A stretch of DNA of 64,000 nucleotides from Odiellus spinosus (lineage: Eukaryota; Arthropoda; Arachnida; Opiliones; Phalangiidae), in contig OY987233.1 of the NCBI GenBank assembly GCA_963920705.1, positions 682,001 to 746,000 of the forward strand, in the 5' to 3' direction. Below are positions 1-26,053 of the stretch, piece by piece. The first letter of the stretch is position 1. Each line of letters opens with the position of its first letter. A program made the translations under genes and the position numbers. Under the pieces are notes generated by a model. It made no database searches. It was not told the origin of the DNA and saw only the letters and a list, made by a program, of their open reading frames with translations.

Positions 1-2290
1 TGGATTTATACTTGGGAAATTTGTGGATTTATACTTCGGAAATTTGTGGATTTATACTTGGAAAATTTGTCGATTTATAATTGGGAAATTTGTGGATTTA
101 TACTTGGGAAATTTGTGCGTCTAGACTTGGGAAATTTGTGGGTCTAGACTTGGGACATTTGTGGATCTAGACTTGGGACATTTGTGGATCTAGACTTTGG
201 ACATTTGTGGATTTATACTTGGGAAATTTGTGAATTTATACTTGTGAAATTTGTGGATTTATACTTGGGAAATTTGTGGATTTATACTTGGGAAATTTGT
301 GGATTTATACTTGGGAAATTTGTGGATTTATACTTGGGAAATTTGTGGATTTATACTTGGGAAATTTGTGGATTTATACTTGGGAAATTTGTGGATTTAT
401 ACTTGGGAAATTTGTGGATTTATACTTGTGAAATTTGTGGATCTACACTTGTGAAATTTGTGGAGCTACACTTGGGAAATTTGTGGATCTACACTTGGGA
501 AATTTGTGGATCTACACTTGGGAAATTTGTGGATCTACACTTTTGAAATATGTGTATCTACACTTGGGAAATTTGTGGATATACACTTGGGAAATATGTG
601 GATATACACTTGGGAAATTTGTGGATCTACACTTGGGAAATTTGTGGATCTACACTTGGGAAATTTGTGGTTCTACACTTGGGAAATTTGTGTATCTACA
701 CTTGGGAAATTTGTGGATTTATACTTGGGAAATTTGTGGATTTATACTTGGGAAATTTGTGGATTTATACTTGGGAAATTTGTGGATTTATACTTGGGAA
801 ATTTGTGGATTTATACTTCGGAAATTTGTGGATTTATACTTGGAAAATTTGTGGATTTATAATTGGGAAATTTGTGGATTTATACTTGGGAAATTTGTGG
901 GTCTAGACTTGGGAAATTTGTGGGTCTAGACTTGGGACATTTGTGGATCTAGACTTGGGACATTTGTGGATCTAGACTTTGGACATTTGTGGATTTATAC
1001 TTGGGAAATTTGTGAATTTATACTTGTGAAATTTGTGGATTTATACTCGGGAAATTTGTGGATTTATACTTGTGAAATTTGTGGATTTATACTTGGGAAA
1101 TTTGTGGATTTATACTTGGGAAATTTGTGGATTTATACATAGGAAATTTGTGGATTTACACTTGACAAATTTGTGGATCTACACTTTGCAAATTTGTGGA
1201 TCTACACTTGGTAAATTTGTGGATCTACACTTGGCAAATTTGTGGATCTACATTTGGGAAATTTGTGGATCTACACTTGGGAAATTTGTGGTTCTACACT
1301 TGGGAAATTTGTGTATCTACACTTGGGAAATTTGTGGATTTATACTTTTGTAATTTATGGATTTATACTTGGGAAATTTGTGGATTTATACTTGGGAAAT
1401 TTGTGGATTTATACTTGGGAAATTTGTGGATTTATTCTTCGGAAATTTGTGGATTTATACTTGGAAAATTTGTGGATTTATAATTGGGAAATTTGTGGAT
1501 TTATACTTGGGAAATTTCTGGGTCTAGACTTGGGAAATTTGTGGGTCTACACTTGTGAAATTTGTGGATCTACACTTGGGAAATTTGTGTATCTACACTT
1601 GGGAAATTTGTGGATTTATACTTGGAAAATTTGTGGATTTATAATTGGGAAATTTGTGGATTTATACTTGGGAAATTTCTGGGTCTAGACTTGGGAAATT
1701 TGTGGGTCTACACTTGTGAAATGTGTGGTTCTACACTTGGGAAATTTGTGTATCTACACTTGGGAAATTTGTGGATTTATACTTGGGAAATTTGTGGATT
1801 TATACTTGGGAAATTTGTGGATTTTCACTTGGCAAATTTGTAGATTTATACTTGGGAAATTTGTGGATTTATATTTGGGAAATTTGTGGATTTATACTTG
1901 GCAAATTTGTGGATCTACACTTGGTAAATTTGTGGATCTACACTTGGCAAATTTGTGGATCTACACTTGGCAAATTTGTGGATCTACAATTGGCAAATTT
2001 GTGGATCTACACTTGGCAAATTTTGTGGATCTACACTTGGGAAATTTGTGGATTTACACTTTGCAAATTTGTGGATCTACACTTGTGAAATTTGTGGATC
2101 TACACTTGGGAAATTTGTGGATCTACACTTGGGAAATTTGTGAATTTATACTTGGGAAATTTGTGGATTTATACTGGGGAAATTTGTGGATTTATACTTG
2201 GGAAATTTGTGGATTTATACTTGGGAAATTTGTGGATTTATACTTGGGAAATTTGTGGATTTATACTTGGGAAATTTGTGGATTTATACT
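1..2290 (+). repeat. Long-range duplicate block, left copy (pairs with about 9983-12203)
   Basis: The order of variant monomers here repeats about 10 kb downstream. The offset begins at 9982 bp (434 monomers) and steps down to 9959, 9936 and 9913 bp (433, 432 and 431 monomers), so the copies differ by three single-monomer gains or losses. A shared rare GTCGATTTATAATTGGG monomer near 82 and 10063 ties the two copies together. The right boundary falls in plain A-type monomers and cannot be fixed exactly. Confidence 0.8.
1340..1365 (+). repeat. Diagnostic monomer TTTTGTAATTTATGG, first of about 40 copies
   Basis: This variant replaces TTGGGAAATTTGTGG and occurs about once per higher-order block. 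By eye I find it near 1348, 7553, 9052, 11258, 12914, 14539, 16287, 17368, 18841, 21053, 22476, 25283, 26249, 27008, 27767, 29285, 29883, 31079, 32252, 33563, 34874, 36599, 37864, 39175, 40486, 41797, 43245, 43774, 45842, 47174, 48439, 49635, 50854, 51130, 52304, 53064, 54007, 55708, 56629, 58856 and 63222. It is always flanked by GTGTATCTAC on the left and a plain A monomer on the right. It is a convenient phase mark for the array. Confidence 0.85.
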
Positions 2291-3405
2291 TGGGAAATTT
2301 GTAGATTTATACTTGGGAAATTTGTGGATTTATATTTGGGAAATATGTGGATTTATACTTGGGAAATTTGTGGATTTATACTTGGGAAATTTGTGGATTT
2401 ATACTTGGGAAATTTGTGGATTTATACTTAGGAAATTTGTGGATTTTCACTTGGCAAATTTGTAGATTTATACTTGGAAAAATTGTGGATTTATATTTGG
2501 GAAATTTGTGGATTTATACTGGGGAAATTTGTGGATTTATACTTGGGAAATTTGTGGATTTACACTTGGCAAATTTGTGGATCTACACTTGGTAAATTTT
2601 TGGATCTACACTTGTCAAATTTGTGGATCTACACTTGGCAAATTTGTGGATCTACACTTGGCAAATTTATGGATCTACACTTGTGAAATTTGTGGAGCTA
2701 CACTTGGGAAATTTGTGGAGCTACACTTGGGAAATTTGTGGATCTACACTTGGGAAATTTGTGGATCTACACTTGGGAAATTTGTGGATCTACACTTGGG
2801 AAATTTGTGGATCTACACTAGGGAAATTTGTGGATATACACATGGTAAATATGTGGATCTACACTAGGGAAATTTGTGGATCTACACTTGGGAAATTTGT
2901 GGATCTACACTTGGGAAATTTGTGGATTTATTCTTAGAAAATTTGGGGATATATGCTTGGAAATTTGTTGATCTATACTTGGGAAATATGTGTATCTATA
3001 CTTGGGATTTTTGTGGATCTACACTTGGCAAATTTGTGGATCTACACTTTGCAAATTTGTGGATCTACACTTGGGAAATTTGTGGATCTACACTTGCAAA
3101 TTTGTGGATCTACACTTGGCAAATTTGTGGATCTACACTTTACAAATTTGTGGATCTACACTTGGGAAATTTGTTGATTTACACTTGGCAAATTTGTGGA
3201 TCTACACTTGGTAAATTTGTGGATCTACACTTGGCAAATTTGTGGATCTCCACTTGGCAAATTTGTGGATCTACACTTGGGAAATTTGTGGATCTACACT
3301 TGGGAAATTTGTGGATCTACACTTGGGAAATTTGTGGATCTACACTTGGGAAATTTGTGGATCTCCACTTGGGAAATTTGTGGATCTCCACTTGGAAAAT
3401 TTGTG
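2212..3405 (+). repeat. 1194-bp tandem duplication, copy 1
   Basis: A block of 52 monomers repeated immediately downstream at an offset of 1194 bp. 1194 is 52 x 23 minus 2, and the block contains two 22-bp monomers (near 2957 and 3095), which accounts for the shortfall. It contains an unusual run with TTGGAAAAATTG (near 2473), TTATTCTTAGAAAATTTGGG (near 2928) and ATATATGCTTGG (near 2950). The left edge lies in plain A-type monomers, so it is uncertain by about 30 bp or more. Confidence 0.88.
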
Positions 3406-4599
3406 GATTTATACTTGGGAAATTTGTGGATTTATACTTGGGAAATTTGTGGATTTATACTTGGGAAATTTGTGGATTTATACTTGGGAAATTTGTAGAT
3501 TTATACTTGGGAAATTTGTGGATTTATATTTGGGAAATATGTGGATTTATACTTGGGAAATTTGTGGATTTATACTTGGGAAATTTGTGGATTTATACTT
3601 GGGAAATTTGTGGATTTATACTTAGGAAATTTGTGGATTTTCACTTGGCAAATTTGTAGATTTATACTTGGAAAAATTGTGGATTTATATTTGGGAAATT
3701 TGTGGATTTATACTGGGGAAATTTGTGGATTTATACTTGGGAAATTTGTGGATTTACACTTGGCAAATTTGTGGATCTACACTTGGTAAATTTTTGGATC
3801 TACACTTGTCAAATTTGTGGATCTACACTTGGCAAATTTGTGGATCTACACTTGGCAAATTTATGGATCTACACTTGTGAAATTTGTGGAGCTACACTTG
3901 GGAAATTTGTGGAGCTACACTTGGGAAATTTGTGGATCTACACTTGGGAAATTTGTGGATCTACACTTGGGAAATTTGTGGATCTACACTTGGGAAATTT
4001 GTGGATCTACACTAGGGAAATTTGTGGATATACACATGGTAAATATGTGGATCTACACTAGGGAAATTTGTGGATCTACACTTGGGAAATTTGTGGATCT
4101 ACACTTGGGAAATTTGTGGATTTATTCTTAGAAAATTTGGGGATATATGCTTGGAAATTTGTTGATCTATACTTGGGAAATATGTGTATCTATACTTGGG
4201 ATTTTTGTGGATCTACACTTGGCAAATTTGTGGATCTACACTTTGCAAATTTGTGGATCTACACTTGGGAAATTTGTGGATCTCCACTTGCAAATTTGTG
4301 GATCTACACTTGGCAAATTTGTGGATCTACACTTTACAAATTTGTGGATCTACACTTGGGAAATTTGTTGATTTACACTTGGCAAATTTGTGGATCTACA
4401 CTTGGTAAATTTGTGGATCTACACTTGGCAAATTTGTGGATCTCCACTTGGCAAATTTGTGGATCTACACTTGGGAAATTTGTGGATCTACACTTGGGAA
4501 ATTTGTGGATCTACACTTGGGAAATTTGTGGATCTACACTTGGGAAATTTGTGGATCTCCACTTGGGAAATTTGTGGATCTCCACTTGGAAAATTTGTG
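3406..4599 (+). repeat. 1194-bp tandem duplication, copy 2
   Basis: Nearly identical to copy 1. The one difference I found by eye is TCTCCACTTGCAAA near 4280 against TCTACACTTGCAAA near 3086. Similarity ends where copy 2 continues in B-type monomers after 4599, while the sequence after copy 1's matching point switches to A-type. This is the youngest-looking large duplication in the window. Confidence 0.88.
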
Positions 4600-7500
4600 G
4601 ATCTACACTTGGGAAATTTGTGGATCTACACTTGGGAAATTTGTGGATCTACACTTGGGAAATTTGTGGATCTACACTTGGGAAATTTGTGGATCTACAC
4701 TTGGGAAATTTGTGGATCTACACTTGTTAAATATGTGGATCTACATTTGGGAAATTTGTGGATCTACATTTGGGAAATTTGTGGATCTACACTTGGTAAA
4801 TTTGTGGATCTACACTTGGCAAATTTGTGGATCTACACTTGCAAATTTGTGGATCTACACTTGGCAAATTTGTGGATTTATACTTGGGAAATTTGTGGAT
4901 TTATACTTGGGAAATTTGTGGATTTATACTTGGGAAATTTGTGTATATATACTTGGGAAATTTGTGGATTTATACTTGGGAAATTTGTGGATTTAATACT
5001 TGGTAAATTTGTAGATTTATACTTGGGGAATTTGTGGATTTATATTTGGGAAATTTGTGGATTTATACTGGGGAAATTTGTGGATTTATACTTGGGAAAT
5101 TTGTGGATTTATACTTAGGAAATTTGTGGATTTTCACTTGGCAAATTTGTAGATTTATACTTGGGAAATTTGTGGATTTATATTTGGGAAATTTGTAGAT
5201 TTATACTTGGCAAATTTGTGGATCTACACTTGGCAAATTTGTGGATCTACAATTGGCAAATTTGTGGATCTACACTTGGCAATTTTTGTGGATCTACACT
5301 TGGGAAATTTGTGGATTTACACTTGGCAAATTTGTGGATCTACACTTGTGAAATTTGTGGGTCTACACTTGGGAAATTTGTGGATCTACACTTGGGAAAT
5401 TTTTGAATTTATACTTGGGAAATTTGTGGATTTATACTGGGGAAATTTGTGGATTTATACTTGGGAAATTTGTGGATTTATACTTGGGAAATTTGTGAAT
5501 TTATACTTGGGAAATTTGTGGATTTATACTTGTGAAATTTGTGGATCTACACTTGTGAAATTTGTGGAGCTACACTTGGGAAATTTGTGGATCTACACTT
5601 GGGAAATTTGTGGATCTACACTTGGGAAATTTGTGGATCTACACTTTTGAAATTTGTGTATCTACACTTGGGAAATTTGTGGATATACACTTGGGAAATA
5701 TGTGGATATACACTTGAGAAATTTGTGGATCTACACTTGGAAAATTTGTGGATCTACATTTGGGAAATTTGTGGATCTACACTTGGGAAATTTGTGGTTC
5801 TACACTTGGGAAATTTGTGTATCTACACTTGGGAAATTTGTGGATTTATACATGGGAAATTTGTGGATTTATACTTGGGAAATTCGTGGATTTATACTTG
5901 GGAAATTTGTGGATTTATACTTGGGAAATTTGTGGATTTATACTTGGGAAATTTGTGGATTTATACTTCGGAAATTTGTGGATTTATACTTGGAAAATTT
6001 GTGGATTTATACTTGGGAAATTTGTGGGTCTAGACTTGGGAAATTTGTGGGTCTAGACTTGGGACATTTGTGGATCTAGACTTGGGACATTTGTGGATCT
6101 AGACTTTGGACATTTGTGGATTTATACTTGGGAAATTCGTGAATTTATACTTGTGTAATTTGTGGATTTATACTTGGGAAATTTGTGTATTTATACTTGG
6201 GAAATTTGTGGATTTATACTTGGGAAATTTGTGGATTTATACTTGGGAAATTTGTGGATTTATACATAGGAAATTTGTGGATTTACACTTGACAAATTTG
6301 TGGATCTACACTTTGCAAATTTGTGGGTCTACACTTGTGAAATTTGTGGTTCTACACTTGGGAAATTTGTGTATCTACACTTGGGAAATTTGTGGATTTA
6401 TACTTGGGAAATTTGTGGATTTATACTTGGGAAATTTGTGGATTTATACTTGGGAAATTTGTGGATTTATACTTGGGAAATTTGTGAATTTATACTTGGG
6501 AAATTTGTGGATTTATAGTTGGGAAATTTGTGGATTTATACTTCGGAAATTTGTGGATTTATACTTGGAAAATTTGTGGATTTATACTTGAGAAATTTGT
6601 GGATTTATACTTGGGAAATTTGTGGATTTATACTTGTGAAATTTGTGGATCTACACTTGTGAAATTTGTGGAGCTACACTTGGGAAATTTCTGGATCTAC
6701 ACTTGGGAAATTTGTGGAACTACACTTGTGAAATTTGTGGATATACACTTGGGAAATATTTGGATCTACACTTGGGAAATTTGTGGATCTACACTTGGAA
6801 AATTTGTGGATCTACATTTGGGAAATTTGTGGATCTACACTTGGGAAATTTGTGGATCTACACTTGGGAAATTTGTGGATTTATACTTGGGAAATTTGTG
6901 GATTTATACTTGGGAAATTTGTGGATTTATACTTCGGAAATTTGTGGATTTATACTTGGGAAATTTGTGGATTTATACTTGGGAAATTTGTGGATTTATA
7001 CTTGGGAAATTTGTGGATTTATACTTGGGAAATTTGTGGATTTATACTTCGGAAATTTGTGGATTTATACTTGGAAAATTTGTGGATTTATAATTGGGAA
7101 ATTTGTGGATTTATACTTGGGAAATTTGTGGGTCTAGACTTGGGAAATTTGTGGGTCTAGACTTGGGACATTTGTGGATCTAGACTTTGGACATTTGTGG
7201 ATTTATACTTGGGAAATTTGTGAATTTATACTTGTGAAATTTGTGGATTTACACTTGGGAAATTTGTGGATTTATACTTGGGAAATTTGTGGATTTATAC
7301 TTGGGAAATTTGTGGATTTATACTTGGGAAATTTGTGGATTTATACATAGGAAATTTGTGGATTTACACTTGACAAATTTGTGGATCTACACTTTGCAAA
7401 TTTGTGGATCTACACTTGGTAAATTTGTGGATCTACACTTGGCAAATTTGTGGATCTACATTTGGGAAATTTGTGGATCTATACTTGGGAAATTTGTGGT

Positions 7501-9982
7501 TCTACACTTGGGAAATTTGTGTATCTACACTTGGGAAATTTGTGGATTTATACTTTTGTAATTTATGGATTTATACTTGGGAAATTTGTGGATTTATATT
7601 TGGGAAATTTGTGGATTTATACTTGGGAACTTTGTGGATTTATACTTGGGAAATTTGTGGATTTATACTTGGGAAATTTGTGGATTTATACCTCGGAAAT
7701 TTGTGGATTTATACTTGGAAAATTTGTGGATTTATAATTGGGAAATTTGTGGATTTATACTTGGGAAATTTCTGGGTCTAGACTTGGGAAATTTGTGGGT
7801 CTACACTTGTGAAATTTGTGGTTCTACACTTGGGAAATTTGTGTATCTACACTTGGGAAATTTGTGGATTTATACTTGGGAAATTTGTGGATTTATACTT
7901 GGGAAATTTGTGGATTTTCACTTGGCAAATTTGTAGATTTATACTTGGGAAATTTGTGGATTTATATTTGGGAAATTTGTGGATTTATACTTGGCAAATT
8001 TGTGGATCTACACTTGGTAAATTTGTGGATCTACACTTGGCAAATTTGTGGATCTACACTTGGCAAATTTGTGGATCTACAATTGGCAAATTTGTGGATC
8101 TACACTTGGCAAATTTTGTGGATCTACACTTGGGAAATTTGTGGATTTACACTTGGCAAATTTGTGGATCTACACTTGTGAAATTTGTGGATCTACACTT
8201 GGGAAATTTGTGGATCTACACTTGGGAAATTTGTGAATTTATACTTGGGAAATTTGTGGATTTATACTGGGGAAATTTGTGGATTTATACTTGGGAAATT
8301 TGTGGATTTATACTTGAGAAATTTGTGGATTTATACTTGGGAAATTTGTGGATTTATACTTGGGAAATTTGTGGATCTACACTTGTGAAATTTGTGGAGC
8401 TACACTTGGGAAATTTGTGGATCTACACTTGGGAAATTTGTGGATCTACACTTGGGAAATTTGTGGATCTACACTTTTGAAATATGTGTATCTACACTTG
8501 GGAAATTTGTGGATATACACTTGGGAAATATGTGGATATACACTTGGGAAATTTGTGGATCTACACTTTGGAAATTTGTGGATCTACACTTGGGAAATTT
8601 GTGGTTCTACACTTGGGAAATTTGTGTATCTACACTTGGGAAATTTGTGGATTTATACTTGGGAAATTTGTGGATTTATACTTGGGAAATTTGTGGATTT
8701 ATACTTGGGAAATTTGTGGATTTATACTTGGGAAATTTGTGGATTTATACTTGGGAAATTTGTGGATTTATACTTCGGAAATTTGTGGATTTATACTTGG
8801 AAAATTTGTGGATTTATAATTGGGAAATTTGTGGATTTATACTTGGGAAATTTGTGGATTTATACATAGGAAATTTGTGGATTTACACTTGACAAATTTG
8901 TGGATCTACACTTTGCAAATTTGTGGATCTACACTTGGCAAATTTGTGGATCTACATTTGGGAAATTTGTGGATCTACACTTGGAAAATTTGTGGTTCTA
9001 CACTTGGGAAATTTGTGTATCTACACTTGGGAAATTTGTGGATTTATACTTTTGTAATTTATGGATTTATACTTGGGAAATTTGTGGATTTATACTTGGG
9101 AAATTTGTGGATTTATACTTGGGAAATTTGTGGATTTATACTTCGGAAATTTGTGGATTTATACTTGGAAAATTTGTGGATTTATAATTGGGAAATTTGT
9201 GGATTTATACTTGGGAAATTTCTGGGTCTAGACTTGGGAAATTTGTGGGTCTACACTTGTGAAATTTGTGGTTCTACACTTGGGAAATTTGTGTATCTAC
9301 ACTTGGGAAATTTGTGGATTTATACTTGGAAAATTTGTGGATTTATAATTGGGAAATTTGTGGATTTATACTTGGGAAATTTCTGGGTCTAGACTTGGGA
9401 AATTTGTGGGTCTACAGTTGTGAAATTTGTGGTTCTACACTTGGGAAATTTGTGTATCTACACTTGGGAAATTTCTGGATTTATACTTGGGAAATTTGTG
9501 GATTTTCACTTGGCAAATTTGTAGATTTATACTTGGGAAATTTGTGGATTTATATTTGGGAAATTTGTGGATTTATACTTGGCAAATTTGTGGATCTACA
9601 CTTGGTAAATTTGTGGATCTACACTTGGCAAATTTGTGGATCTACACTTGGCAAATTTGTGGATCTACAATTGGCAAATTTGTGGATCTACACTTGGCAA
9701 ATTTTGTGGATCTACACTTGGGAAATTTGTGGATTTACACTTGGCAAATTTGTGGATCTACACTTGTGAAATTTGTGGATCTACACTTGGGAAATTTGTG
9801 GATCTACACTTGGGAAATTTGTGAATTTATACTTGGAAATTTGTGGATTTATACTGGGGAAATTTGTGGATTTATACTTGGGAAATTTGTGGATTTATAC
9901 TTGGGAAATTTGTGGATTTATACTTGGGAAATTTGTGGATTTATACTTGGGAAATTTGTGGATTTATACTTGAAAAAATTTG

Positions 9983-12203
9983 TGGATTTATACTTGGGAA
10001 ATTTGTGGATTTATACTTCGGAAATTTGTGGATTTATACTTGGAAAATTTGTCGATTTATAATTGGGAAATTTGTGGATTTATACTTGGGAAATTTGTGG
10101 GTCTAGACTTGGGAAATTTGTGGGTCTAGACTTGGGACATTTGTGGATCTAGACTTGGGACATTTGTGGATCTAGACTTTGGACATTTGTGGATTTATAC
10201 TTGGGAAATTTGTGAATTTATACTTGTGAAATTTGTGGATTTATACTTGGGAAATTTGTGGATTTATACTTGGGAAATTTGTGGATTTATACTTGGGAAA
10301 TTTGTGGATTTATACTTGGGAAATTTGTGGATTTATACTTGGGAAATTTGTGGATTTATACTTGGGAAATTTGTGGATTTATACTTGTGAAATTTGTGGA
10401 TCTACACTTGTGAAATTTGTGGAGCTACACTTGGGAAATTTGTGGATCTACACTTGGGAAATTTGTGGATCTACACTTTTGAAATATGTGTATCTACACT
10501 TGGGAAATTTGTGGATATACACTTGGGAAATATGTGGATATACACTTGGGAAATTTGTGGATCTACACTTGGGAAATTTGTGGATCTACACTTGGGAAAT
10601 TTGTGGTTCTACACTTGGGAAATTTGTGTATCTACACTTGGGAAATTTGTGGATTTATACTTGGGAAATTTGTGGATTTATACTTGGGAAATTTGTGGAT
10701 TTATACTTGGGAAATTTGTGGATTTATGCTTGGGAAATTTGTGGATTTATACTTCGGAAATTTGTGGATTTATACTTGGAAAATTTGTGGATTTATAATT
10801 GGGAAATTTGTGGATTTATACTTGGGAAATTTGTGGGTCTAGACTTGGGAAATTTGTGGGTCTAGACTTGGGACATTTGTGGATCTAGACTTGGGACATT
10901 TGTGGATCTAGACTTTGGACATTTGTGGATTTATACTTGGGAAATTTGTGAATTTATACTTGTGAAATTTGTGGATTTATACTTGGGAAATTTGTGGATT
11001 TATACTTGTGAAATTTGTGGATTTATACTTGGGAAATTTGTGGATTTATACTTGGGAAATTTGTGGATTTACACTTGACAAATTTGTGGATCTACACTTT
11101 GCAAATTTGTGGATCTACACTTGGTAAATTTGTGGATCTACACTTGGCAAATTTGTGGATCTACATTTGGGAAATTTGTGGATCTACACTTGGGAAATTT
11201 GTGGTTCTACACTTGGGAAATTTGTGTATCTACACTTGGGAAATTTGTGGATTTATACTTTTGTAATTTATGGATTTATACTTGGGAAATTTGTGGATTT
11301 ATACTTGGGAAATTTGTGGATTTATACTTGGGAAATTTGTGGATTTATTCTTCGGAAATTTGTGGATTTATACTTGGAAAATTTGTGGATTTATAATTGG
11401 GAAATTTGTGGATTTATACTTGGGAAATTTCTGGGTCTAGACTTGGGAAATTTGTGGGTCTACACTTGTGAAATTTGTGGATCTACACTTGGGAAATTTG
11501 TGTATCTACACTTGGGAAATTTGTGGATTTATACTTGGAAAATTTGTGGATTTATAATTGGGAAATTTGTGGATTTATACTTGGGAAATTTCTGGGTCTA
11601 GACTTGGGAAATTTGTGGGTCTACACTTGTGAAATGTGTGGTTCTACACTTGGGAAATTTGTGTATCTACACTTGGGAAATTTGTGGATTTATACTTGGG
11701 AAATTTGTGGATTTATACTTGGGAAATTTGTGGATTTTCACTTGGCAAATTTGTAGATTTATACTTGGGAAATTTGTGGATTTATATTTGGGAAATTTGT
11801 GGATTTATACTTGGCAAATTTTTATATCTACACTTGGTAAATTTGTGGATCTACACTTGGCAAATTTGTGGATCTACACTTGGCAAATTTGTGGATCTAC
11901 AATTGGCAAATTTGTGGATCTACACTTGGCAAATTTTGTGGATCTACACTTGGGAAATTTGTGGATTTACACTTGGCAAATTTGTGGATCTACACTTGTG
12001 AAATTTGTGGATCTACACTTGGGAAATTTGTGGATCTACACTTGGGAAATTTGTGAATTTATACTTGGGAAATTTGTGGATTTATACTGGGGAAATTTGT
12101 GGATTTATACTTGGGAAATTTGTGGATTTATACTTGGGAAATTTGTGGATTTATACTTGGGAAATTTGTGGATTTATACTTGGGAAATTTGTGGATTTAT
12201 ACT
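9983..12203 (+). repeat. Long-range duplicate block, right copy (pairs with 1-2290)
   Basis: This has the same variant order as 1-2290. Private differences include TTTTTATATCTACAC near 11820 where the left copy has TTTGTGGATCTACAC, and TTGGCAAA near 11972 where the left copy has TTTGCAAA. These differences show that the copies have had time to diverge, unlike the 1194-bp pair at 2.2-4.6 kb. Confidence 0.8.
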
Positions 12204-13095
12204 TGGGAAATTTGTGGATTTATACTTGGGAAATTTGTGGATTTATACTTCGGAAATTTGTGGATTTATACTTGGAAAATTTGTGGATTTATAATTGGGA
12301 AATTTGTGGATTTATACTTGGGAAATTTGTGGGTCTAGACTTGGGAAATTTGTGGGTCTAGACTTGGGACATTTGTGGATCTAGACTTGGGACATTTGTG
12401 GATCTAGACTTTGGACATTTGTGGATTTATACTTGGGAAATTTGTGAATTTATACTTGTGAAATTTGTGGATTTATACTTGGGAAATTTGTGGATTTATA
12501 CTTGGGAAATTTGTGGATTTATACTTGGGAAATTTGTGGATTTATACTTGGGAAATTTGTGGATTTTTACTTGTGAAATTTGTGAATTTATACTTGTGAA
12601 ATTTGTGGATTTATACTTGGGAAATTTGTGGATTTATACTTGTGAAATTTGTGGATTTATACTTGGGAAATTTGTGGATTATACTTGGGAAATTTGTGGA
12701 TTTATACATAGGAAATTTGTGGATTTACACTTGACAAATTTGTGGATCTACACTTTGCAAATTTGTGGATCTACACTTGGTAAATTTGTGGATCTACACT
12801 TGGCAAATTTGTGGATCTACATTTGGGAAATTTGTGGATCTACACTTGGGAAATTTGTGGTTCTACACTTGGGAAATTTGTGTATCTACACTTGGGAAAT
12901 TTGTGGATTTATACTTTTGTAATTTATGGATTTATACTTGGGAAATTTGTGGATTTATACTTGGGAAATTTGTGGATTTATACTTGGGAAATTTGTGGAT
13001 TTATTCTTCGGAAATTTGTGGATTTATACTTGGAAAATTTGTGGATTTATAATTGGGAAATTTGTGGATTTATACTTGGGAAATTTCTGGGTCTA
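11000..13095 (+). repeat. Block carrying the dynamin island, left flank (paralog of about 14281-16468)
   Basis: This stretch matches the one about 3.3 kb downstream monomer by monomer. After removing the island's net 498 bp, the offset is 2783 bp (121 monomers) up to about 12.3 kb and 2875 bp (125 monomers) from about 12.4 kb. The four extra monomers are a local 92-bp duplication at about 15626-15717. Both copies share a private monomer missing one T (GTGGATTATAC near 12676 and 16049), so they are true duplicates. Confidence 0.82.
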
Positions 13096-13097
13096 TA

Positions 13098-13099
13098 AG
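13098..13099 (+). promoter_or_regulatory. Candidate 3' splice site (AG) at the island's left edge
   Basis: AG at 13098-13099 is followed by G AAC ATC CAC. If it is used, the exon starts with the last base of a codon. Animal dynamins usually have lysine before NIHG, and a preceding exon ending in AA would give AAG, lysine. The upstream bases ATTTCTGGGTCTATA are satellite-derived and moderately pyrimidine-rich. Only the bases TA lie between the satellite edge and this AG, so almost no native intron is left. Splicing here is an inference; the AG itself is seen. Confidence 0.45.
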
Positions 13100-13580
13100 G
13101 AACATCCACGGTATTAGGGTTGGCCTTTTCACTCCAGATATGGCCTTCGAAGCCATTGTTAAAAAACAGATCTCAAAATTAAAAGAACCCTCGTTGAAGT
13201 GCATAGATTTGGTGGTGAATGAGATGTGTAACGTAATAAGAAGGTGTACGGAGAAGATGAACCACTATCCTAGTTTGAGAGAAGAAACGGAACGCATCAT
13301 AACCACGCACATCAGGGAACGAGAGCAAAAAACGAAGGAACAAATTAGTCTGTTGGTAGAGACAGAGTTGGCATACATGAATACAAACCATGAAGATTTT
13401 ATTGGTTTCACAAATGCGCAACAAACAGCGGAAGCTACAAGTGGGAAAAGGAAACTTGGAAATCAGGTGATCCGCAAAGGTTGGGTGTGCATTCATAATC
13501 TGGGCATCATGAAAGGCGGTTCTCGAGATTATTGGTTCGTCCTTACGTCCGAATCGCTCTCCTGGTTCAAAGACGAAGAA
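13100..13580 (+). CDS. Dynamin GTPase, partial: distal stalk and start of PH domain (one exon-like block)
   Basis: Dynamin is the large GTPase that assembles as a helix on the necks of endocytic vesicles and drives scission. This block encodes about 160 residues, matching roughly residues 394-550 of the animal protein. It opens with IHGIR (13104-13118), the stalk loop used in helical assembly, then [20 protein letters not shown] (13278-13298) and [10 protein letters not shown] (13380-13409). It then enters the PH domain with IMKGGS (13506-13523), the membrane-facing loop with its conserved lysine, and [13 protein letters not shown]. The GTPase domain, most of the PH domain, the GED and the proline-rich tail are absent. 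There is no stop or frameshift, and every strongly conserved position I can recall is kept. Residues such as [11 protein letters not shown] and LGNQVIRKG resemble the fly shibire protein. The frame is also open into the satellite on both sides, from an ATG at 13053 to 13625, but those ends are satellite, not dynamin. It is either a live exon or a captured fragment. Confidence 0.93.
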
Positions 13581-13602
13581 GTATTTCCGTTGTTAATGAT
13601 CG
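13581..13602 (+). promoter_or_regulatory. Candidate 5' splice site (GT) and intron stub at the island's right edge
   Basis: After the codons for KDEE the similarity to dynamin stops, at a GT (GAA|GTATTT, 13581-13582). In animal dynamins the next residues are typically EKEKK; here the frame gives VFPLLMI, which does not match. A phase-0 exon end at this point is the simplest reading, with 13581-13602 as a 22-bp remnant of the following intron before the satellite resumes. GTATTT is a weaker donor than GTRAGT. This stub argues against a processed mRNA copy, which would have run on into the next exon. Confidence 0.5.
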
Positions 13603-13629
13603 AATTTGTGGGTCTACACTTGTGAAATT

Positions 13630-14358
13630 TGTGGTTCTACACTTGGGAAATTTGTGGATCTACACTTGGGAAATTTGTGGATCTACACTTTTGAAATATG
13701 TGTATCTACACTTGGGAAATTTGTGGATATACACTTGGGAAATATGTGGATATACACTTGGGAAATTTGTGGATCTACACTTGGGAAATTTGTGGATCTA
13801 CACTTGGGAAATTTGTGGTTCTACACTTGGGAAATTTGTGTATCTACACTTGGGAAATTTGTGGATTTATACTTGGGAAATTTGTGGATTTATACTTGGG
13901 AAATTTGTGGATTTATACTTGGGAAATTTGTGGATTTATACTTGTGAAATTTGTGGATCTACACTTGTGAAATTTGTGGAGCTACACTTGGGAAATTTGT
14001 GGATCTACACTTGGGAAATTTGTGGATCTACACTTGGGAAATTTGTGGATCTACACTTTTGAAATATGTGTATCTACACTTGGGAAATTTGTGGATATAC
14101 ACTTGGGAAATATGTGGATATACACTTGGGAAATTTGTGGATCTACACTTGGGAAATTTGTGGATCTACACTTGGGAAATTTGTGGTTCTACACTTGGGA
14201 AATTTGTGTATCTACACTTGGGAAATTTGTGGATTTATACTTGGGAAATTTGTGGATTTATACTTGGGAAATTTGTGGATTTATACTTGGGAAATTTGTG
14301 GATTTATACTTGGGAAATTTGTGGATTTATACTTGTGAAATTTGTGAATTTATACTTG
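13630..14358 (+). repeat. 368-bp tandem duplication beside the island
   Basis: Two copies of a 16-monomer block, about 13630-13990 and 13998-14358, at an offset of 368 bp. The TTTTGAAATATGTGTATC variant at about 13690 and 14058 marks the pair. It lies directly 3' of the island's right flank. The empty-site paralog at 16.5 kb has only one such block, so this duplication happened in the island-bearing copy or was lost from the other. Confidence 0.78.
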
Positions 14359-15625
14359 TGAAATTTGTGGATTTACACTTTGCAAATTTGTGGATCTACA
14401 CTTGGTAAATTTGTGGATCTACACTTGGCAAATTTGTGGATCTACATTTGGGAAATTTGTGGATCTACACTTGGGAAATTTGTGGTTCTACACTTGGGAA
14501 ATTTGTGTATCTACACTTGGGAAATTTGTGGATTTATACTTTTGTAATTTATGGATTTATACTTGGGAAATTTGTGGATTTATACTTGGGAAATTTGTGG
14601 ATTTATACTTGGGAAATTTGTGGATTTATTCTTCGGAAATTTGTGGATTTATACTTGGAAAATTTGTGGATTTATAATTGGGAAATTTGTGGATTTATAC
14701 TTGGGAAATTTCTGGGTCTAGACTTGGGAAATTTGTGGGTCTACACTTGTGAAATTTGTGGATCTACACTTGGGAAATTTGTGTATCTACACTTGGGAAA
14801 TTTGTGGATTTATACTTGGAAAATTTGTGGATTTATAATTGGGAAATTTGTGGATTTATACTTGGGAAATTTCTGGGTCTAGACTTGGGAAATTTGTGGG
14901 TCTACACTTGTGAAATGTGTGGTTCTACACTTGGGAAATTTGTGTATCTACACTTGGGAAATTTGTGGATTTATACTTGGGAAATTTGTGGATTTATACT
15001 TGGGAAATTTGTGGATTTTCACTTGGCAAATTTGTAGATTTATACTTGGGAAATTTGTGGATTTATATTTGGGAAATTTGTGGATTTATACTTGGCAAAT
15101 TTGTATATCTACACTTGGTAAATTTGTGGATCTACACTTGGCAAATTTGTGGATCTATACTTGGCAAATTTGTGGATCTACAATTGGCAAATTTGTGGAT
15201 CTACACTTGGCAAATTTTGTGGATCTACACTTGGGAAATTTGTGGATTTACACTTGGCAAATTTGTGGATCTACACTTGTGAAATTTGTGGATCTACACT
15301 TGGGAAATTTGTGGATCTACACTTGGGAAATTTGTGAATTTATACTTGGGAAATTTGTGGATTTATACTGGGGAAATTTGTGGATTTATACTTGGGAAAT
15401 TTGTGGATTTATACTTGGGAAATTTGTGGATTTATACTTGGGAAATTTGTGGATTTATACTTGGGAAATTTGTGGATTTATACTTGGGAAATTTGTGGAT
15501 TTATACTTGGGAAATTTGTGGATTTATACTTCGGAAATTTGTGGATTTATACTTGGAAAATTTGTGGATTTATAATTGGGAAATTTGTGGATTTATACTT
15601 GGGAAATTTGTGGGTCTAGACTTGG

Positions 15626-15717
15626 GAAATTTGTGGATTTATACTTGGAAAATTTGTGGATTTATAATTGGGAAATTTGTGGATTTATACTTGGGAAATT
15701 TGTGGGTCTAGACTTGG
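15626..15717 (+). repeat. 92-bp (four-monomer) local duplication
   Basis: The ordered set TTGGAAAA, TTATAATTGGG, a plain A monomer and GGGTCTAGAC appears twice in a row here, where the matching place at 12.3 kb has it once. It shifts the offset between the two paralogous blocks from 121 to 125 monomers. Confidence 0.8.
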
Positions 15718-16440
15718 GAAATTTGTGGGTCTAGACTTGGGACATTTGTGGATCTAGACTTGGGACATTTGTGGATCTAGACTTTGGACATTTGTGGATT
15801 TATACTTGGGAAATTTGTGAATTTATACTTGTGAAATTTGTGGATTTATACTTGGGAAATTTGTGGATTTATACTTGGGAAATTTGTGGATTTATACTTG
15901 GAAAATTTGTGGATTTATACTTGGGAAATTTGTGGATTTATACTTGTGAAATTTGTGAATTTATACTTGTGAAATTTGTGGATTTATACTTGGGAAATTT
16001 GTGGATTTATACTTGTGAAATTTGTGGATTTATACTTGGGAAATTTGTGGATTATACTTGGGAAATTTGTGGATTTATACATAGGAAATTTGTGGATTTA
16101 CACTTGACAAATTTGTGGATCTACACTTTGCAAATTTGTGGATCTACACTTGGTAAATTTGTGGATCTACACTTGGCAAATTTGTGGATCTACATTTGGG
16201 AAATTTGTGGATCTACACTTGGGAAATTTGTGGTTCTACACTTGGGAAATTTGTGTATCTACACTTGGGAAATTTGTGGATTTATACTTTTGTAATTTAT
16301 GGATTTATACTTGGGAAATTTGTGGATTTATACTTGGGAAATTTGTGGATTTATACTTGGGAAATTTGTGGATTTATTCTTCGGAAATTTGTGGATTTAT
16401 ACTTGGAAAATTTGTGGATTTATAATTGGGAAATTTGTGG

Positions 16441-16600
16441 ATTTATACTTGGGAAATTTCTGGGTCTAGACTTGGGAAATTTGTGGGTCTACACTTGTGA
16501 AATTTGTGGTTCTACACTTGGGAAATTTGTGGATCTACACTTGGGAAATTTGTGGATCTACACTTTTGAAATATGTGTATCTACACTTGGGAAATTTGTG
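16441..16600 (+). repeat. Empty-site paralog of the dynamin insertion
   Basis: Here TTTCTGGGTCTA runs straight through GACTTGGGA into AATTTGTGGGTCTACAC. The following order of variants (TTGTGAAA, GTGGTTCTAC, two B monomers, TTTTGAAATATG) is the same as that to the right of the island from 13603. It is the uninterrupted version of the site that holds dynamin at 13096-13602. Similar uninterrupted junctions occur near 1520, 7775 and 11433. Confidence 0.85.
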
Positions 16601-19399
16601 GATATACACTTGGGAAATATGTGGATATACACTTGGCAAATTTGTGGATCTACACTTGGGAAATTTGTGGATCTACACTTGGGAAATTTGTGGTTCTACA
16701 CTTGGGAAATTTGTGTATCTACACTTGGGAAATTTGTGGATTTATACTTGGGAAATTTGTGGATTTATACTTGGGAAATTTGTGGATTTATACTTGGGAA
16801 ATTTGTGGATTTATACTTGGGAAATTTGTGGATTTATACTTCGGAAATTTGTGGATTTATACTTGGAAAATTTGTGGATTTATAATTGGGAAATTTGTGG
16901 ATTTATACTTGGGAAATTTGTGGGTCTAGACTTGGGAAATTTGTGGGTCTAGACTTGGGACATTTGTGGATCTAGACTTGGGACATTTGTGGATCTAGAC
17001 TTTGGACATTTGTGGATTTATACTTGGGAAATTTGTGAATTTATACTTGTGAAATTTGTGGATTTATACTTGGGAAATTTGTGGATTTATACTTGTGAAA
17101 TTTGTGGATTTATACTTGGGAAATTTGTGGATTTATACTTGGGAAATTTGTGGATTTATACATAGGAAATTTGTGGATTTACACTTGACAAATTTGTGGA
17201 TCTACACTTTGCAAATTTGTGGATCTACACTTGGTAAATTTGTGGATCTACACTTGGCAAATTTGTGGATCTACATTTGGGAAATTTGTGGATCTACACT
17301 TGGGAAATTTGTGGTTCTACACTTGGGAAATTTGTGTATCTACACTTGGGAAATTTGTGGATTTATACTTTTGTAATTTATGGATTTATACTTGGGAAAT
17401 TTGTGGATTTATACTTGGGAAATTTGTGGATTTATACTTGGGAAATTTGTGGATTTATTCTTCGGAAATTTGTGGATTTATACTTGGAAAATTTGTGGAT
17501 TTATGATTGGGAAATTTGTGGATTTATACTTGGGAAATTTCTGGGTCTAGACTTGGGAAATTTGTGGGTCTACACTTGTGAAATTTGTGGATCTACACTT
17601 GGGAAATTTGTGTATCTACACTTGGGAAATTTGTGGATTTATACTTGGGAAATTTGTGGATTTATACTTGGGAAATTTGTGGATTTTCACTTGGCAAATT
17701 TGTAGATTTATACTTGGGAAATTTGTGGATTTATATTTGGGAAATTTGTGGATTTATACTTGGCAAATTTGTGGATCTACACTTGGTAAATTTGTGGATC
17801 TACACTTGGCAAATTTGTGGATCTACACTTGGCAAATTTGTGGATCTACAATTGGCAAATTTGTGGATCTACACTTGGCAAATTTTGTGGATCTACACTT
17901 GGGAAATTTGTGGATCTACACTTGTGAAATTTGTGGATCTACACTTGGAAAATTTGTGGATCTACACTTGGGAAATTTGTGAATTTATACTTGGGAAATT
18001 TGTGGATTTATACTGGGGAAATTTGTGGATTTATACTTGGGAAATTTGTGGATTTATACTGGGGAAATTTGTGGATTTATACTTGGGAAATTTGTGGATT
18101 TATACTTGGGAAATTTGTGGATTTATACTTGGGAAATTTGTGGATTTATACTTGGGAAATTTGTGGATTTATACTTCGGAAATTTGTGGATTTATACTTG
18201 GAAAATTTGTGGATTTATAATTGGGAAATTTGTGGATTTATACTTGGGAAATTTGTGGGTCTAGACTTGGGAAATTTGTGGGTCTAGACTTGGGAAATTT
18301 GTGGGTCTAGACTTGGGACATTTGTGGATCTAGACTTTGGACATTTGTGGATTTATACTTGGGAAATTTGTGAATTTATACTTGTGAAATTTGTGGATTT
18401 ATACTTGGGAAATTTGTGGATTTATACTTGGGAAATTTGTGGATTTATACTTGGGAAATTTGTGGATTTATACTTGTTAAATTTGTGGATTTATACTTGG
18501 GAAATTTGTGAATTTATACTTGTGAAATTTGTGGATTTATACTTGGGAAATTTGTGGATTTATACTTGTGAAATTTGTGGATTTATACTTGGGAAATTTG
18601 TGGATTTATACTTGGGAAATTTGTGGATTTATACATAGGAAATTTGTGGATTTACACTTGACAAATTTGTGGATCTACACTTTGCAAATTTGTGGATCTA
18701 CACTTGGTAAATTTGTGGATCTACACTTGGCAAATTTGTGGATCTACATTTGGGAAATTTGTGGATCTACACTTGGGAAATTTGTGGTTCTACACTTGGG
18801 AAATTTGTGTATCTACACTTGGGAAATTTGTGGATTTATACTTTTGTAATTTATGGATTTTTACTTGGGAAATTTGTGGATTTATACTTGGGAAATTTGT
18901 GGATTTATACTTGGGAAATTTGTGGATTTATTCTTCGGAAATTTGTGGATTTATACTTGGAAAATTTGTGGATTTATAATTGGGAAATTTGTGGATTTAT
19001 ACTTGGGAAATTTCTGGGTCTAGACTTGGGAAATTTGTGGGTCTACACTTGTGAAATTTGTGGTTCTACACTTGGGAAATTTGTGTATCTACACTTGGGA
19101 AATTTGTGGATTTATACTTGGAAAATTTGTGGATTTATAATTGGGAAATTTGTGGATTTATACTTGGGAAATTTCTTTGTCTAGACTTGGGAAATTTGTG
19201 GGTCTACACTTGTGAAATTTGTGGTTCTACACTTGGGAAATTTGTGTATCTACACTTGGCAAATTTGTGGATTTATACTTGGGAAATTTGTGGATTTATA
19301 CTTGGGAAATTTGTGGATTTTCACTTGGCAAATTTGTAGATTTATACTTGGGAAATTTGTGGATTTATATTTGGGAAATTTGTGGATTTATACTTGGCA

Positions 19400-20226
19400 A
19401 ATTTGTGGATCTACACTTGGTAAATTTGTGGATCTACACTTGGCAAATTTGTGGATCTACACTTGGCAAATTTGTGGATCTACAATTGGCAAATTTGTGG
19501 ATCTACACTTGGCAAATTTTGTGGATCTACACTTGGGAAATTTGTGGATTTACACTTGGCAAATTTGTGGATCTACACTTGTGAAATTTGTGGATCTACA
19601 CTTGGGAAATTTGTGGATCTACACTTGGGAAATTTGTGAGTTTATACTTGGGAAATTTGTGGATTTATACTGGGGAAATTTGTGGATTTATACTTGGGAA
19701 ATTTGTGGATTTATACTTGGGAAATTTGTGGATTTATACTTGGGAAATTTGTGGATTTATACTTGGGAAATTTGGATTTATACTTGGGAAATTTGTGGAT
19801 TTATACTTGGCAAATTTGTGGATCTACACTTGGTAAATTTGTGGATCTACACTTGGCAAATTTGTGGATCTACACTTGGCAAATTTGTGGATCTACAATT
19901 GGCAAATTTGTGGATCTACACTTGAAAAATTTTGTGGATCTACACTTGGGAAATTTGTGGATTTACACTTGGCAAATTTGTGGATCTACACTTGTGAAAT
20001 TTGTGGATCTACACTTGGGAAATTTGTGGATCTACACTTGGGAAATTTGTGAATTTATACTTGGGAAATTTGTGGATTTATACTGGGGAAATTTGTGGAT
20101 TTATACTTGGGAAATTTGTGGATTTATTCTTGGGAAATTTGTGGATTTATACTTGGGAAATTTGTGGATTTATACTTGTGAAATTTGTGGATCTACACTT
20201 GTGAAATTTGTGGAGCTACACTTGGG
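19400..20226 (+). repeat. 413-bp tandem duplication
   Basis: Two copies at an offset of 413 bp, for example the TCTACAATTGGCAAA monomer at about 19483 and 19896. 413 is 18 x 23 plus 1 minus 2, matching the one 24-bp monomer (GCAAATTTTGTGG near 19515) and the 21-bp monomer (AAATTTGGATTTATAC near 19770) in the interval. Copy 2 has TTGAAAAATTTTG where copy 1 has TTGGCAAATTTTG. Confidence 0.78.
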
Positions 20227-23200
20227 AAATTTGTGGATCTACACTTGGGAAATTTGTGGATCTACACTTGGGAAATTTGTGGATCTACACTTTTGAAATA
20301 TGTGTATCTACACTTGGGAAATTTGTGGATATACACTTGGGAAATATGTGGATATACACTTGGGAAATTTGTGGATCTACACTTGGGAAATTTGTGGATC
20401 TACACTTGGGAAATTTGTGGTTCTACACTTGGGAAATTTGTGTATCTACACTTGGGAAATTTGTGGATTTATACTTGGGAAATTTGTGGATTTATACTTG
20501 GGAAATTTGTGGATTTATACTTGGGAAATTTGTGGATTTATACTTGGGAAATTTGTTTATTTATACTTCGGAAATTTGTGGATTTATACTTGGAAAATTT
20601 GTGGATTTATAATTGGGAAATTTGTGGATTTATACTTGGGAAATTTGTGGGTCTAGACTTGGGAAATTTGTGGGTCTAGACTTTGGACATTTGTGGATTT
20701 ATACTTGGGAAATTTGTGAATTTATACTTGTGAAATTTGTGGATTTATACTTGGGAAATTTGTGGATTTATACTTGTGAAATTTGTGGATTTATACTTGG
20801 GAAATTTGTGGATTTATACTTGGGAAATTTGTGGATTTATACATAGGAAATTTGTGGATTTATAATTGGGAAATTTGTGGATTTATACTTGGGAAATTTG
20901 TGGGTCTAGACTTGGGAAATTTGTGGGTCTACACTTGTGAAATTTGTGGTTCTACACTTGGGAAATTTGTGTATCTACACTTGGGAAATTTGTGGAGCTA
21001 CACTTGGGAAATTTGTGGATCTACACTTGGGAAATTTGTGGATTTATACTTTTGTAATTTATGGATTTATACTTGGGAAATTTGTGGATTTATACTTGGG
21101 AAATTTGTGGATTTATACTTGGGAAATTTGTGGATTTATTCTTTGGAAATTTGTGGATTTATACTTGGAAAATTTGTGGATTTATAATTGGGAAATTTGT
21201 GGATTTATACTTGGGAAATTTCTGGGTCTAGACTTGGGAAATTTGTGGGTCTACACTTGTGAAATTTGTGGTTCTACACTTGGGAAATTTGTGTATCTAC
21301 ACTTGGGAAATTTGTGGATTTATACTTGGAAAATTTGTGGATTTATAATTGGGAAATTTGTGGATTTATACTTGGGAAATTTCTGGGTCTAGACTTGGGA
21401 AATTTGTGGGTCTACACTTGTGAAATTTGTGGTTCTACACTTGGGAAATTTGTGTATCTACACTTGGGAAATTTGTGGATTTATACTTGGGAAATTTGTG
21501 GATTTATATTTGGGAAATTTGTGGATTTATACTTGGCAAATTTGTGGATCTACACTTGGTAAATTTGTGGATCTACACTTGGCAAATTTGTGGATCTACA
21601 CTTGGCAAATTTGTCGATCTACAATTGGCAAATTTGTGGATCTACACTTGGCAAATTTTGTGGATCTACACTTGGGAAATTTGTGGATTTACACTTGGCA
21701 AATTTGTGGATCTACACTTGTGAAATTTGTGGATCTACACTTGGGAAATTTGTGGATCTACACTTGGGAAATTTGTGAATTTATACTTGGGAAATTTGTG
21801 GATTTATACTGGGGAAATTTGTGGATTTATACTTGGGAAATTTGTGGATTTATACTTGGGAAATTTGTGGATTTATACTTGGGAAATTTGTGGATTTATA
21901 CTTGGGAAATTTGTGGATTTATACTTGGGAAATTTGTGGATTTATACTTGGGAAATTTGTGGATTTATACTTCGGAAATTTGTGGATTTATACTTGGAAA
22001 ATTTGTGGATTTATAATTGGGAAATTTGTGGATTTATACTTGGGAAATTTGTGGGTCTAGACTTGGGAAATTTGTGGGTCTAGACTTGGGACATTTGTGG
22101 ATCTAGACTTTGGACATTTGTGGATTTATACTTGGGAAATTTGTGAATTTATACTTGTGAAATTTGTGGATTTATACTTGGGAAATTTGTGGATTTATAC
22201 TTGGGAAATTTGTGGATTTATACTTGGGAAATTTGTGGATTTATACTTGGGAAATTTGTGGATTTATACATAGGAAATTTGTGGATTTACACTTGACAAA
22301 TTTGTGGATCTACACTTTGCAAATTTGTGGATCTACACTTGGTAAATTTGTGGATCTACACTTGGCAAATTTGTGGATCTACATTTGGGAAATTTGTGGA
22401 TCTACACTTGGGAAATTTGTGGTTCTACACTTGGGAAATTTGTGTATCTACACTTGGGAAATTTGTGGATTTATACTTTTGTAATTTATGGATTTATACT
22501 TGGGAAATTTGTGGATTTATACTTTAGAAATTTGTGGATTTATACTTGGGAAATTTGTGGATTTATACTTCGGAAATTTGTGGATTTATACTTGGAAAAT
22601 TTGTGGATTTATAATTGGGAAATTTGTGGATTTATACTTGGGAAATTTCTGGGTCTAGACTTGGGAAATTTGTGGGTCTACACTTGTGAAATTTGTGGTT
22701 CTACACTTGGGAAATTTGTGTATCTACACTTGGGAAATTTGTGGATTTATACTTGGGAAATTTGTGGATTTATACTTGGGAAATTTGTGGATTTATACTT
22801 GGGAAATTTGTGAATTTATACTTGGGAAATTTGTGGATTTATACTTGGGAAATTTGTGGATTTATACTTCGGAAATTTGTGGATTTATACTTGGAAAATT
22901 TGTGGATTTATACTTGAGAAATTTGTGGATTTATACTTGGGAAATTTGTGGATTTATACTTGTGAAATTTGTGGATCTACACTTGTGAAATTTGTGGAGC
23001 TACACTTGGGAAATTTGTGGATCTACACTTGGGAAATTTGTGGATCTACACTTGGGAAATTTGTGGATCTACACTTGGGAAATTTGTGGATCTACACTTG
23101 GGAAATTTGTGGATATACACTTGGGAAATATGTGGATCTACACTTGGGAAATTTGTGGATCTACACTTGGAAAATTTGTGGATCTACATTTGGGAAATTT

Positions 23201-26053
23201 GTGGATCTACACTTGGGAAATTTGTGTTTCTACACTTGGGAAATTTGTGGATTTATACTAGGGAAATTTGTGGATTTATACTTGGGAAATTTGTGGATTT
23301 ATACTTCGGAAATTTGTGGATTTATACTTGGGAAATTTGTGGATTTATACTTGGAAAATTTGTGGATTTATACTTCAGAAATTTATGGATTTATACTTAG
23401 GAAATTTGTGGATTTATACTTGGGAAATTTGTGGATTTATATTTGGGAAATTTGTGGATTTATACTTGGCAAATTTGTGGATCTACACTTGGTAAATTTG
23501 TGGATCTACACTTGGCAAATTTGTGGATCTACAATTGGCAAATTTGTGGATCTACACTTGGCAAATTTTGTGGATCTACACTTGGGAAATTTGTGGATTT
23601 ACACTTGGCAAATTTGTGGATCTACACTTGTGAAATTTGTGGATCTACACTTGGGAAATTTGTGGATCTACACTTGGGAAATTTGTGAATTTATACTTGG
23701 GAAATTTGTGGATTTATACTGGGGAAATTTGTGGATTTATACTTGGGAAATTTGTGGATTTATACTTGGGAAATTTGTGGATTTATACTTGGGAAATTTG
23801 TGGATTTATACTTGGAAAATTTGTGGATTTATACTTGGGAAATTTGTGGATTTATACTTGGGAAATTTGTGGATTTATACTTCGGAAATTTGTGGATTTA
23901 TACTTGGAAAATTTGTGGATTTATAATTGGGAAATTTGTGGATTTATACTTGGGAAATTTGTGGGTCTAGACTTGGGAAATTTGTGGGTCTAGACTTGGG
24001 ACATTTGTGGATCTAGACTTTGGACATTTGTGGATTTATACTTGGGAAATTTGTGAATTTATACTTGTGAAATTTGTGGATTTATACTTGGGAAATTTGT
24101 GGATTTATACTTGGGAAATTTGTGGATTTATACTTGGGAAATTTGTGGATTTATACTTGGGAAATTTGTGGATTTATACTTGGGAAATTTGTGGATTTAT
24201 ACTTGGGAAATTTTGTGGATTTATACTTGGGAAATTTGTGGATTTATACTTCGGAAATTTGTGGATTTATACTTGGGAAATTTGTGGATTTATACTTGGG
24301 AAATTTGTGGATTTATACTTGGGAAATTTGTGGATTTATACTTCGGAAATTTATGGATTTATACTTGGGAAATTTGTGGATTTATACTTGGGAAATTTGT
24401 GGATTTATACTTTGGAAATTTGTGGATTTATACTTAGGAAATTTGTGGATTTTCACTTGGCAAATTTGTAGATTTATACTTGGGAAATTTGTGGATTTAT
24501 ACTTGGGAAATTTGTGGATTTATACTTGGGAAATTTGTTTATTTATACTTGGGAAATTTTTGGATTTATACTTGGGAAATTTGTGGATTTATAATTGGGA
24601 AATTTGTGGATTTATACTTGGGAAATTTGTGGGTCTAGACTTGGGACATTTGTGGATTTATATTTGGGAAATTTGTGAATTTTTACTTGGAAATTTGTGG
24701 ATTTATACTTGGGAAATTTGTGGATTTATTCTTGGGAAATTTGTGGATTTATACTTGGGAAATTTGTGGATTTATACTTGGGAAATTTGTGGATTTATAC
24801 TTGGGAAATTTGTGGATTTATACTTGGGAAATTTGTGGATTTATACTTCGGAAATTTGTGGATTTTTACTTGGGACATTTGTGGATCTAGACTTGGGACA
24901 TTTGTGGATCTAGACTTGGGACATTTGTGGATTTATACTTGGGTAATTTGTGAATTTATACTTGGGAAATTTGTGGATTTATACTTGGGAAATTTGTGGA
25001 TTTATACTTGGGAAATTTGTGGATTTATACTTGGGAAATTTGTGGATTTATACTTGGGAAATTTGTGGATTTATACTTAGGAAATTTGTGGATTTACACT
25101 TGACAAATTAATGGATCTACACTTTGCAAATTTGTGGATCTATACTTGGTAAATTTGTGGATCTACACTTGGCAAATTTGTGGATATACATTTGGGAAAT
25201 TTGTGGATATACACTTGGGAAATTTGTGGTTCTACACTTGGGAAATTTGTGTATCTACACTTGGGAAATTTGTGGATTTATACTTTTGTAATTTATGGAT
25301 TTATACTTGGGAAATTTGTGGATTTATATTTGGGAAATTTGTGGATTTATACTTGGGAAATTTGTGGATTTATACTTGGGAAATTTGTGGATTTATACTT
25401 GGGAAATTTGTGGATTTATATTTGGGAAATTTGTGGATTTATACTTGGGAAATTTCAGGATTTATACTTGGGAAATTTGTGGATTTATACTTGGAAAATT
25501 TGTGGATTTATAATTGGGAAATTTGTGGATTTATACTTGGGAAATTTGTGGGTCTAGACTTGGGAAATTTGTGGGTCTACACTTGTGAAATTTGTGGTTC
25601 TACACTTGGGAAATTTGTGTATCTACACTTGGGAAATTTTTGGATTTATACTTGGGAAATTTGTGGATTTATACTTGGGAAATTTGTGGATTTATACTTG
25701 GGAAATTTGTGGATTTATACTTGGGAAATTTGTGGATTTATACTCGGGAAATTTGTGGATTTATACTTGGAAAATTTGTGGATTTATACTTGAGAAATTT
25801 GTGGATTTATACTTAGAAAATTTGTGGATTTTCACTTGGCAAATTTGTAGATTTATACTTGGGAAATTTGTGGATTTATACTTGGGAAATTTGTGGATTT
25901 ATACTTGGGAAATTTGTGGATTTATACTTGGGAAATTTGTGGATTTATACTTGGGAAATTTGTGGATTTATACTTGGGAAATTTGTGGATTTATACTTGG
26001 GAAATTTGTGGATTTATACTTGAGAAATTTGTGGATTTATACTTAGGAAATTT

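Follow-up and report, generated by a model that had tools for sequence, protein, structure and literature searches.

A dynamin gene fragment in a 23-bp satellite array, likely inserted as a break-repair patch

In the human genome, class 2 templated insertions have no target-site duplication and no poly-A tail, carry a microdeletion and have been explained as the repair of breaks with a patch from elsewhere (PMC5110952). For the Drosophila simulans clade, a study reported 49 independent events that placed gene copies on the Y chromosome, 28 of them DNA-based and 13 RNA-based, and the authors inferred a preference for microhomology-mediated end joining (PMC8794474). Giant introns that contain satellite DNA are also known in Drosophila (PMC6508621).

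The locus studied here lies in a 64-kb stretch of DNA, all of which was analysed (the window), where a 23-bp satellite surrounds a single island that encodes part of a dynamin. The preliminary description had offered two readings of this island, a live gene with satellite-filled introns or a captured fragment. Our analysis favors the second, with a probability of roughly 0.8: a fragment of an animal dynamin gene was inserted into an already existing satellite array, likely as a patch in the repair of a break. An empty copy of the insertion site (flanks meeting at 16470/16478) and a marker pair split by the island support this reading and speak against a live gene in which the island would be an ancestral exon with satellite grown on either side.

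The satellite forms one array over positions 1–64000 (TRF; 2782 copies, 91% matches), and a periodic Viterbi fit gave 93% consensus agreement for the aligned satellite bases. The fit found a single non-satellite stretch in the window, 13098–13602; every 46-bp segment clear of the island had more than 30 consensus matches. The left limit can be placed slightly further out. In the satellite, the two bases after TGGGTCTA are GA in 109 cases, CA in 53 and GG in 2, and GGGTCTATA is present only once in the window, at 13089, on the left edge of the island. Because the base after TGGGTCTA at this edge fits no other copy and GGGTCTATA is unique to it, position 13096 is foreign, and therefore about 9 bp of satellite were replaced. 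These results agree with the preliminary description, which had seen a 507-bp island at 13096–13602 in an otherwise unbroken satellite.

The array itself is not uniform. Its right part is more homogeneous, with a median best-copy identity of 0.991 in 1–24000 (51 windows) and 0.996 in 24000–64000 (86 windows). The fit contained 39 single-base length changes, of which the last insertion is at 28352, with deletions only beyond that point. Open reading frame patterns that repeat every 1,311 bp in 32073–41381 suggest higher-order units, as do other long offsets separating near-identical array segments. Furthermore, stop-free frames of up to 402 codons arise from the satellite itself (41667–42875 and elsewhere), so that open frames in this window mean little.

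The dinucleotide AG is scarce on the plus strand of the satellite, with 5.4 per kb observed over 1–64000 against 64 expected from base composition, and CT is frequent (55.7 per kb). The near-absence of AG is explained by the 23-bp consensus, which has none. Intron-like selection was considered as a cause of this scarcity and is unsupported, as G>A changes giving rise to AG occur about as often as the others (9.7 versus 10.7 distinct monomers per site, three sites each; raw counts 55 versus 92). Among A>G changes, those yielding AG are the rarer class (0.5 versus 6.5 per site), a shortage that rests on just two versus four sites, and we see no clear sign of selection.

The coding part of the island is a dynamin by homology. 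Its match to DNM1 spans all 160 residues (about 246 bits, E about 1e-72), with 108/160 or 110/160 identical residues for the two DNM1 chains compared, and the match to DNM1L (Drp1) is weaker (74 bits, residues 2–102). The likeness is far above chance and, judged from the protein comparison, identifies the block as a classical dynamin of the animal DNM/shibire type, not Drp1; its residues are, we presume, arthropod-like. Pfam placed Dynamin_M over residues 1–108 (E 9.3e-35). At an E threshold of 0.001, the PH family was absent from the Pfam result for the 160-residue translation, but residues from about 121 to 160 match the solved dynamin PH domains 1dyn, 2dyn, 3zys and 2ys1. Thus, the 160 uninterrupted residues with stalk and PH elements that had been noted from the letters are upheld by the open frame at 13101–13580, the whole-length DNM1 match and the domain assignments.

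A complete classical dynamin consists of GTPase, stalk, PH, GED and proline-rich parts. No complete dynamin gene is present in the 64-kb window, where a section of the stalk and the beginning of the PH domain are the sole dynamin parts. The encoded protein would be partial, starting inside the stalk, ending inside the PH domain and lacking the GTPase domain. We also searched collections of microbes, viruses and plasmids, from which little was expected. Protein relatives of the fragment gave 8 pattern matches in viral contigs and 20 in microbial genome contigs, none of them confirmed, and no match in plasmids; a two-monomer satellite pattern had no match in microbial genome contigs or viral contigs. 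The features of the locus are collected in Table 1.

Table 1. Features of the dynamin island and its surroundings in the 64-kb window.
Feature	Positions	Strand	Basis
Left portion of the 23-bp satellite array; consensus TGGATTTATACTTGGGAAATTTG; higher-order variants present	1..13095	+	TRF, Viterbi fit
Left flank in common with the empty copy ending at 16470; 2 mismatches in 844 bp	12252..13095	+	Flank comparison
Marker CTGGGTCTA; its partner TGGGTCTA is pushed to 13609 by the island	13087..13095	+	Marker count
Inserted foreign segment, 507 bp; the replaced satellite bases, about 9, read GACTTGGGA in the empty copy	13096..13602	+	Viterbi fit, empty-site comparison, marker pair
Left edge TAAGG; together with the A before it can be read as Ile-Arg, which would fit dynamin coding, or as an AG acceptor followed by G	13096..13100	+	Sequence
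Dynamin coding, 160 open codons, NIHGIR to KDEE; covers a section of the stalk/middle domain and the beginning of the PH domain	13101..13580	+	Open frame, protein matches, Pfam
22-bp tail GTATTTCCGTTGTTAATGATCG, starting with GT; possibly a native intron start, or filler	13581..13602	+	Frame comparison
23-bp satellite array, right part	13603..64000	+	TRF, Viterbi fit
Right flank in common with the empty copy starting at 16478; 1 mismatch in 300 bp	13603..13902	+	Flank comparison
Empty site: 7 satellite bases between the matched flanks, in a copy without the island	16471..16477	+	Flank comparison, controls

Which came first, the array or the island? An empty copy of the same array segment lies about 3 kb downstream of the island. 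The best other match of the left flank ends at 16470, with identities of 99.8, 99.6 and 99.0% for flanks of 460, 690 and 1000 bp; with 230 bp alone, four places tie at 99.6% (14722, 11441, 16470 and 1528). For the right flank, the best other match of 230 bp begins at 16478 (99.6%); at 460 bp this place ties for best at 95.9%, and from 690 bp upwards it is surpassed by other places. Beyond about 1.1 kb on the left and 0.3 kb on the right, the match to the empty copy drops to the ordinary level of the array. Near-identical copies are common in this array, where a second copy with at least 99% identity exists for 83 of 137 segments 460 bp long, and the argument therefore rests on both flanks meeting at one site. 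Taken jointly (460 + 230 bp), the flanks agree with the 16470 site at 0.9971 over 690 bp, with the next best site at 0.939, and the 16470 site was also the best at three other flank lengths tried. The 7-bp spacing between the flanks follows from the 23-bp phase and adds no evidence.

Control comparisons were made at other positions in the array. Random boundary pairs in the same monomer phase reached at most 0.983 (n = 250) and pairs within 5 kb at most 0.988 (n = 150), so that none of the 250 random and none of the 150 nearby pairs attained 99%; among truly contiguous positions, 30 of 100 reached 0.997. Furthermore, CTGGGTCTA was found 16 times, and in all 15 occurrences other than the one at the island TGGGTCTA follows exactly 23 bp on; the pair is split by the island alone. 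The higher-order pattern of the array runs on across the island. Because the flanks meet at an empty site and the marker pair is split, we conclude that the island was placed into a pre-existing array. The two copies of TGGGTCTA that border the island might be taken for a target-site duplication, but the same pair stands 23 bp apart at 15 of 15 island-free CTGGGTCTA sites. Neither the empty-site comparison nor the marker pair revealed a target-site duplication at the island, and its tail sequence has no poly-A.

Within the block shared by the occupied and the empty copy, 3 of 1,144 bases differ (2/844 on the left and 1/300 on the right), a count that omits bases 13096–13097 and whose outer ends were set where mismatches start to cluster; the identity over the full 1000-bp left flank is 99.0%. 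So few differences indicate that the insertion is probably young and that its open frame needs no selection. In simulations with an assumed indel share of 0.12, which apply if these differences mark the time elapsed since the duplication, a neutral frame as long as the coding block survived in 91% of runs at 0.13% divergence and in 82% at 0.26% (1,500 runs per value), and survival was 45% at 1% and 2% at 5% divergence. The open frame is consequently not strong evidence of function. The age estimate is itself soft, as homogenization or conversion of the satellite could make the event look too young.

Could the island nevertheless be one exon of a live dynamin gene with this satellite filling its introns, as in Drosophila kl-3 and kl-5? 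The frame is intact, an AG at 13098–13099 and a GT at 13581–13582 flank the homologous block, and the 22 bp past KDEE show no recognizable dynamin likeness in their three forward frames. The AG|G start and GT end are what a real exon would show, and they count against capture. On the other hand, the left-edge bases also read as dynamin coding, their counterpart in human dynamin being, as we take it, Ile-Lys. Had satellite expanded independently in two introns, one would expect neither a shared higher-order phase across the exon nor a 99.7% empty copy 3 kb away. The lack of AG on the plus strand follows from the consensus, with no clear selection found, and there is no second exon in the 64-kb window, where the island is the only non-satellite stretch; the remark that no other dynamin exon lies within 13 kb upstream or 50 kb downstream was thus accurate. 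The empty site, the flank controls and the split marker pair rule out a giant-intron gene as the leading reading, and we consider it very unlikely. Classical processed pseudogene formation, by LINE-type retroposition of a dynamin mRNA, is highly improbable as well. The island is seamless across at least one human DNM1 intron position (c.1197), as a copy of an mRNA would be, but neither of the hallmarks of LINE retroposition, a poly-A tail and a target-site duplication, is present. About 9 bp were lost instead, the 3′ end lies inside the coding region and the 22-bp tail is not recognizable as dynamin.

An assembly or read chimera also has to be weighed, as satellites are difficult to assemble. 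However, a chimera joins two unrelated ends once, whereas at this locus the two ends come back to one array position to within 9 bp, and we regard this explanation as very unlikely. Capture by a transposon was rejected on grounds of length: of the 507 bp, 480 code for dynamin, and little room for transposon ends remains in the other 27 bases. It is also conceivable, though extremely unlikely, that the inserted fragment later gained a role, either as a spliced extra exon of an array-spanning transcript (perhaps the dynamin transcript, should the array be part of a dynamin intron) or as a source of small RNAs for the germline regulation of dynamin.

The preferred reading, capture of a dynamin fragment during break repair, can be put as a sequence of events. 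A double-strand break would have arisen within the satellite, and end joining would have repaired it using a piece of dynamin DNA or cDNA as a patch. About 9 bp of satellite would have been lost at the repair, with neither a target-site duplication nor a poly-A tail being made, and the open frame would have survived since the event is young and not since the fragment works. The loss of about 9 bp, together with the absence of a target-site duplication and of poly-A, fits end-joining repair with a dynamin patch, and these are the same features that mark class 2 templated insertions.

Was the patch DNA or RNA in origin? The clues pull in opposite ways. A variant name identifies c.1197 as the first base of human DNM1 exon 10a (PMC10516351); by arithmetic it is the third base of codon 399, and the N394 numbering of the DNM1 match places it within the island. 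The island shows no break at this position, which would suit a cDNA patch, provided that the donor gene carries an intron there. The alternative exon 10 pair is described as a vertebrate feature absent from invertebrate dynamin (PMC2916854), and intron positions may therefore differ. The 22-bp tail, which starts with GT and is not recognizable as dynamin, would fit a genomic fragment that extends into an intron. The sequences beside the dynamin block are TAAGG on the left and GTATTTCCG on the right; the left edge, (A)TAAGG, is readable both as Ile-Arg and as AG|G and does not decide between DNA and cDNA.

The locus is a clear case of a satellite array that holds both a gene-fragment insertion and its own empty site, so that a single sequence reveals the order of events. 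The locus carries a warning too: an intact exon-like block within satellite is, alone, no evidence of a giant-intron gene. Otherwise, it is a minor event of genome evolution. Judging by titles and abstract openings, a literature search that covered few subscription journals gave no published account of this satellite or of dynamin in satellite, and six short satellite strings looked for in papers led to none about this satellite.

The captured dynamin fragment is best seen as an unusually legible case of an already known kind of event. It resembles the giant introns of Drosophila kl-3 and kl-5 in having an exon-sized coding block amid tens of kb of satellite but, unlike in those genes as described, the evidence here places the array before the block, and the window contains no second exon (PMC6508621). 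The gene duplications to the Drosophila Y chromosome, made by DNA- or RNA-based transposition and in more than half of the cases suspected by the authors to be pseudogenes, share with it a partial gene copy in repeat-rich DNA; what differs is that here one 507-bp piece lies in pure satellite (PMC8794474). The human class 2 templated insertions (TSIPs) likewise consist of a short sequence from elsewhere with a microdeletion and neither a target-site duplication nor poly-A; unlike in the human cases reported, the acceptor here is a satellite array, and the event is read from the acceptor side alone (PMC5110952).
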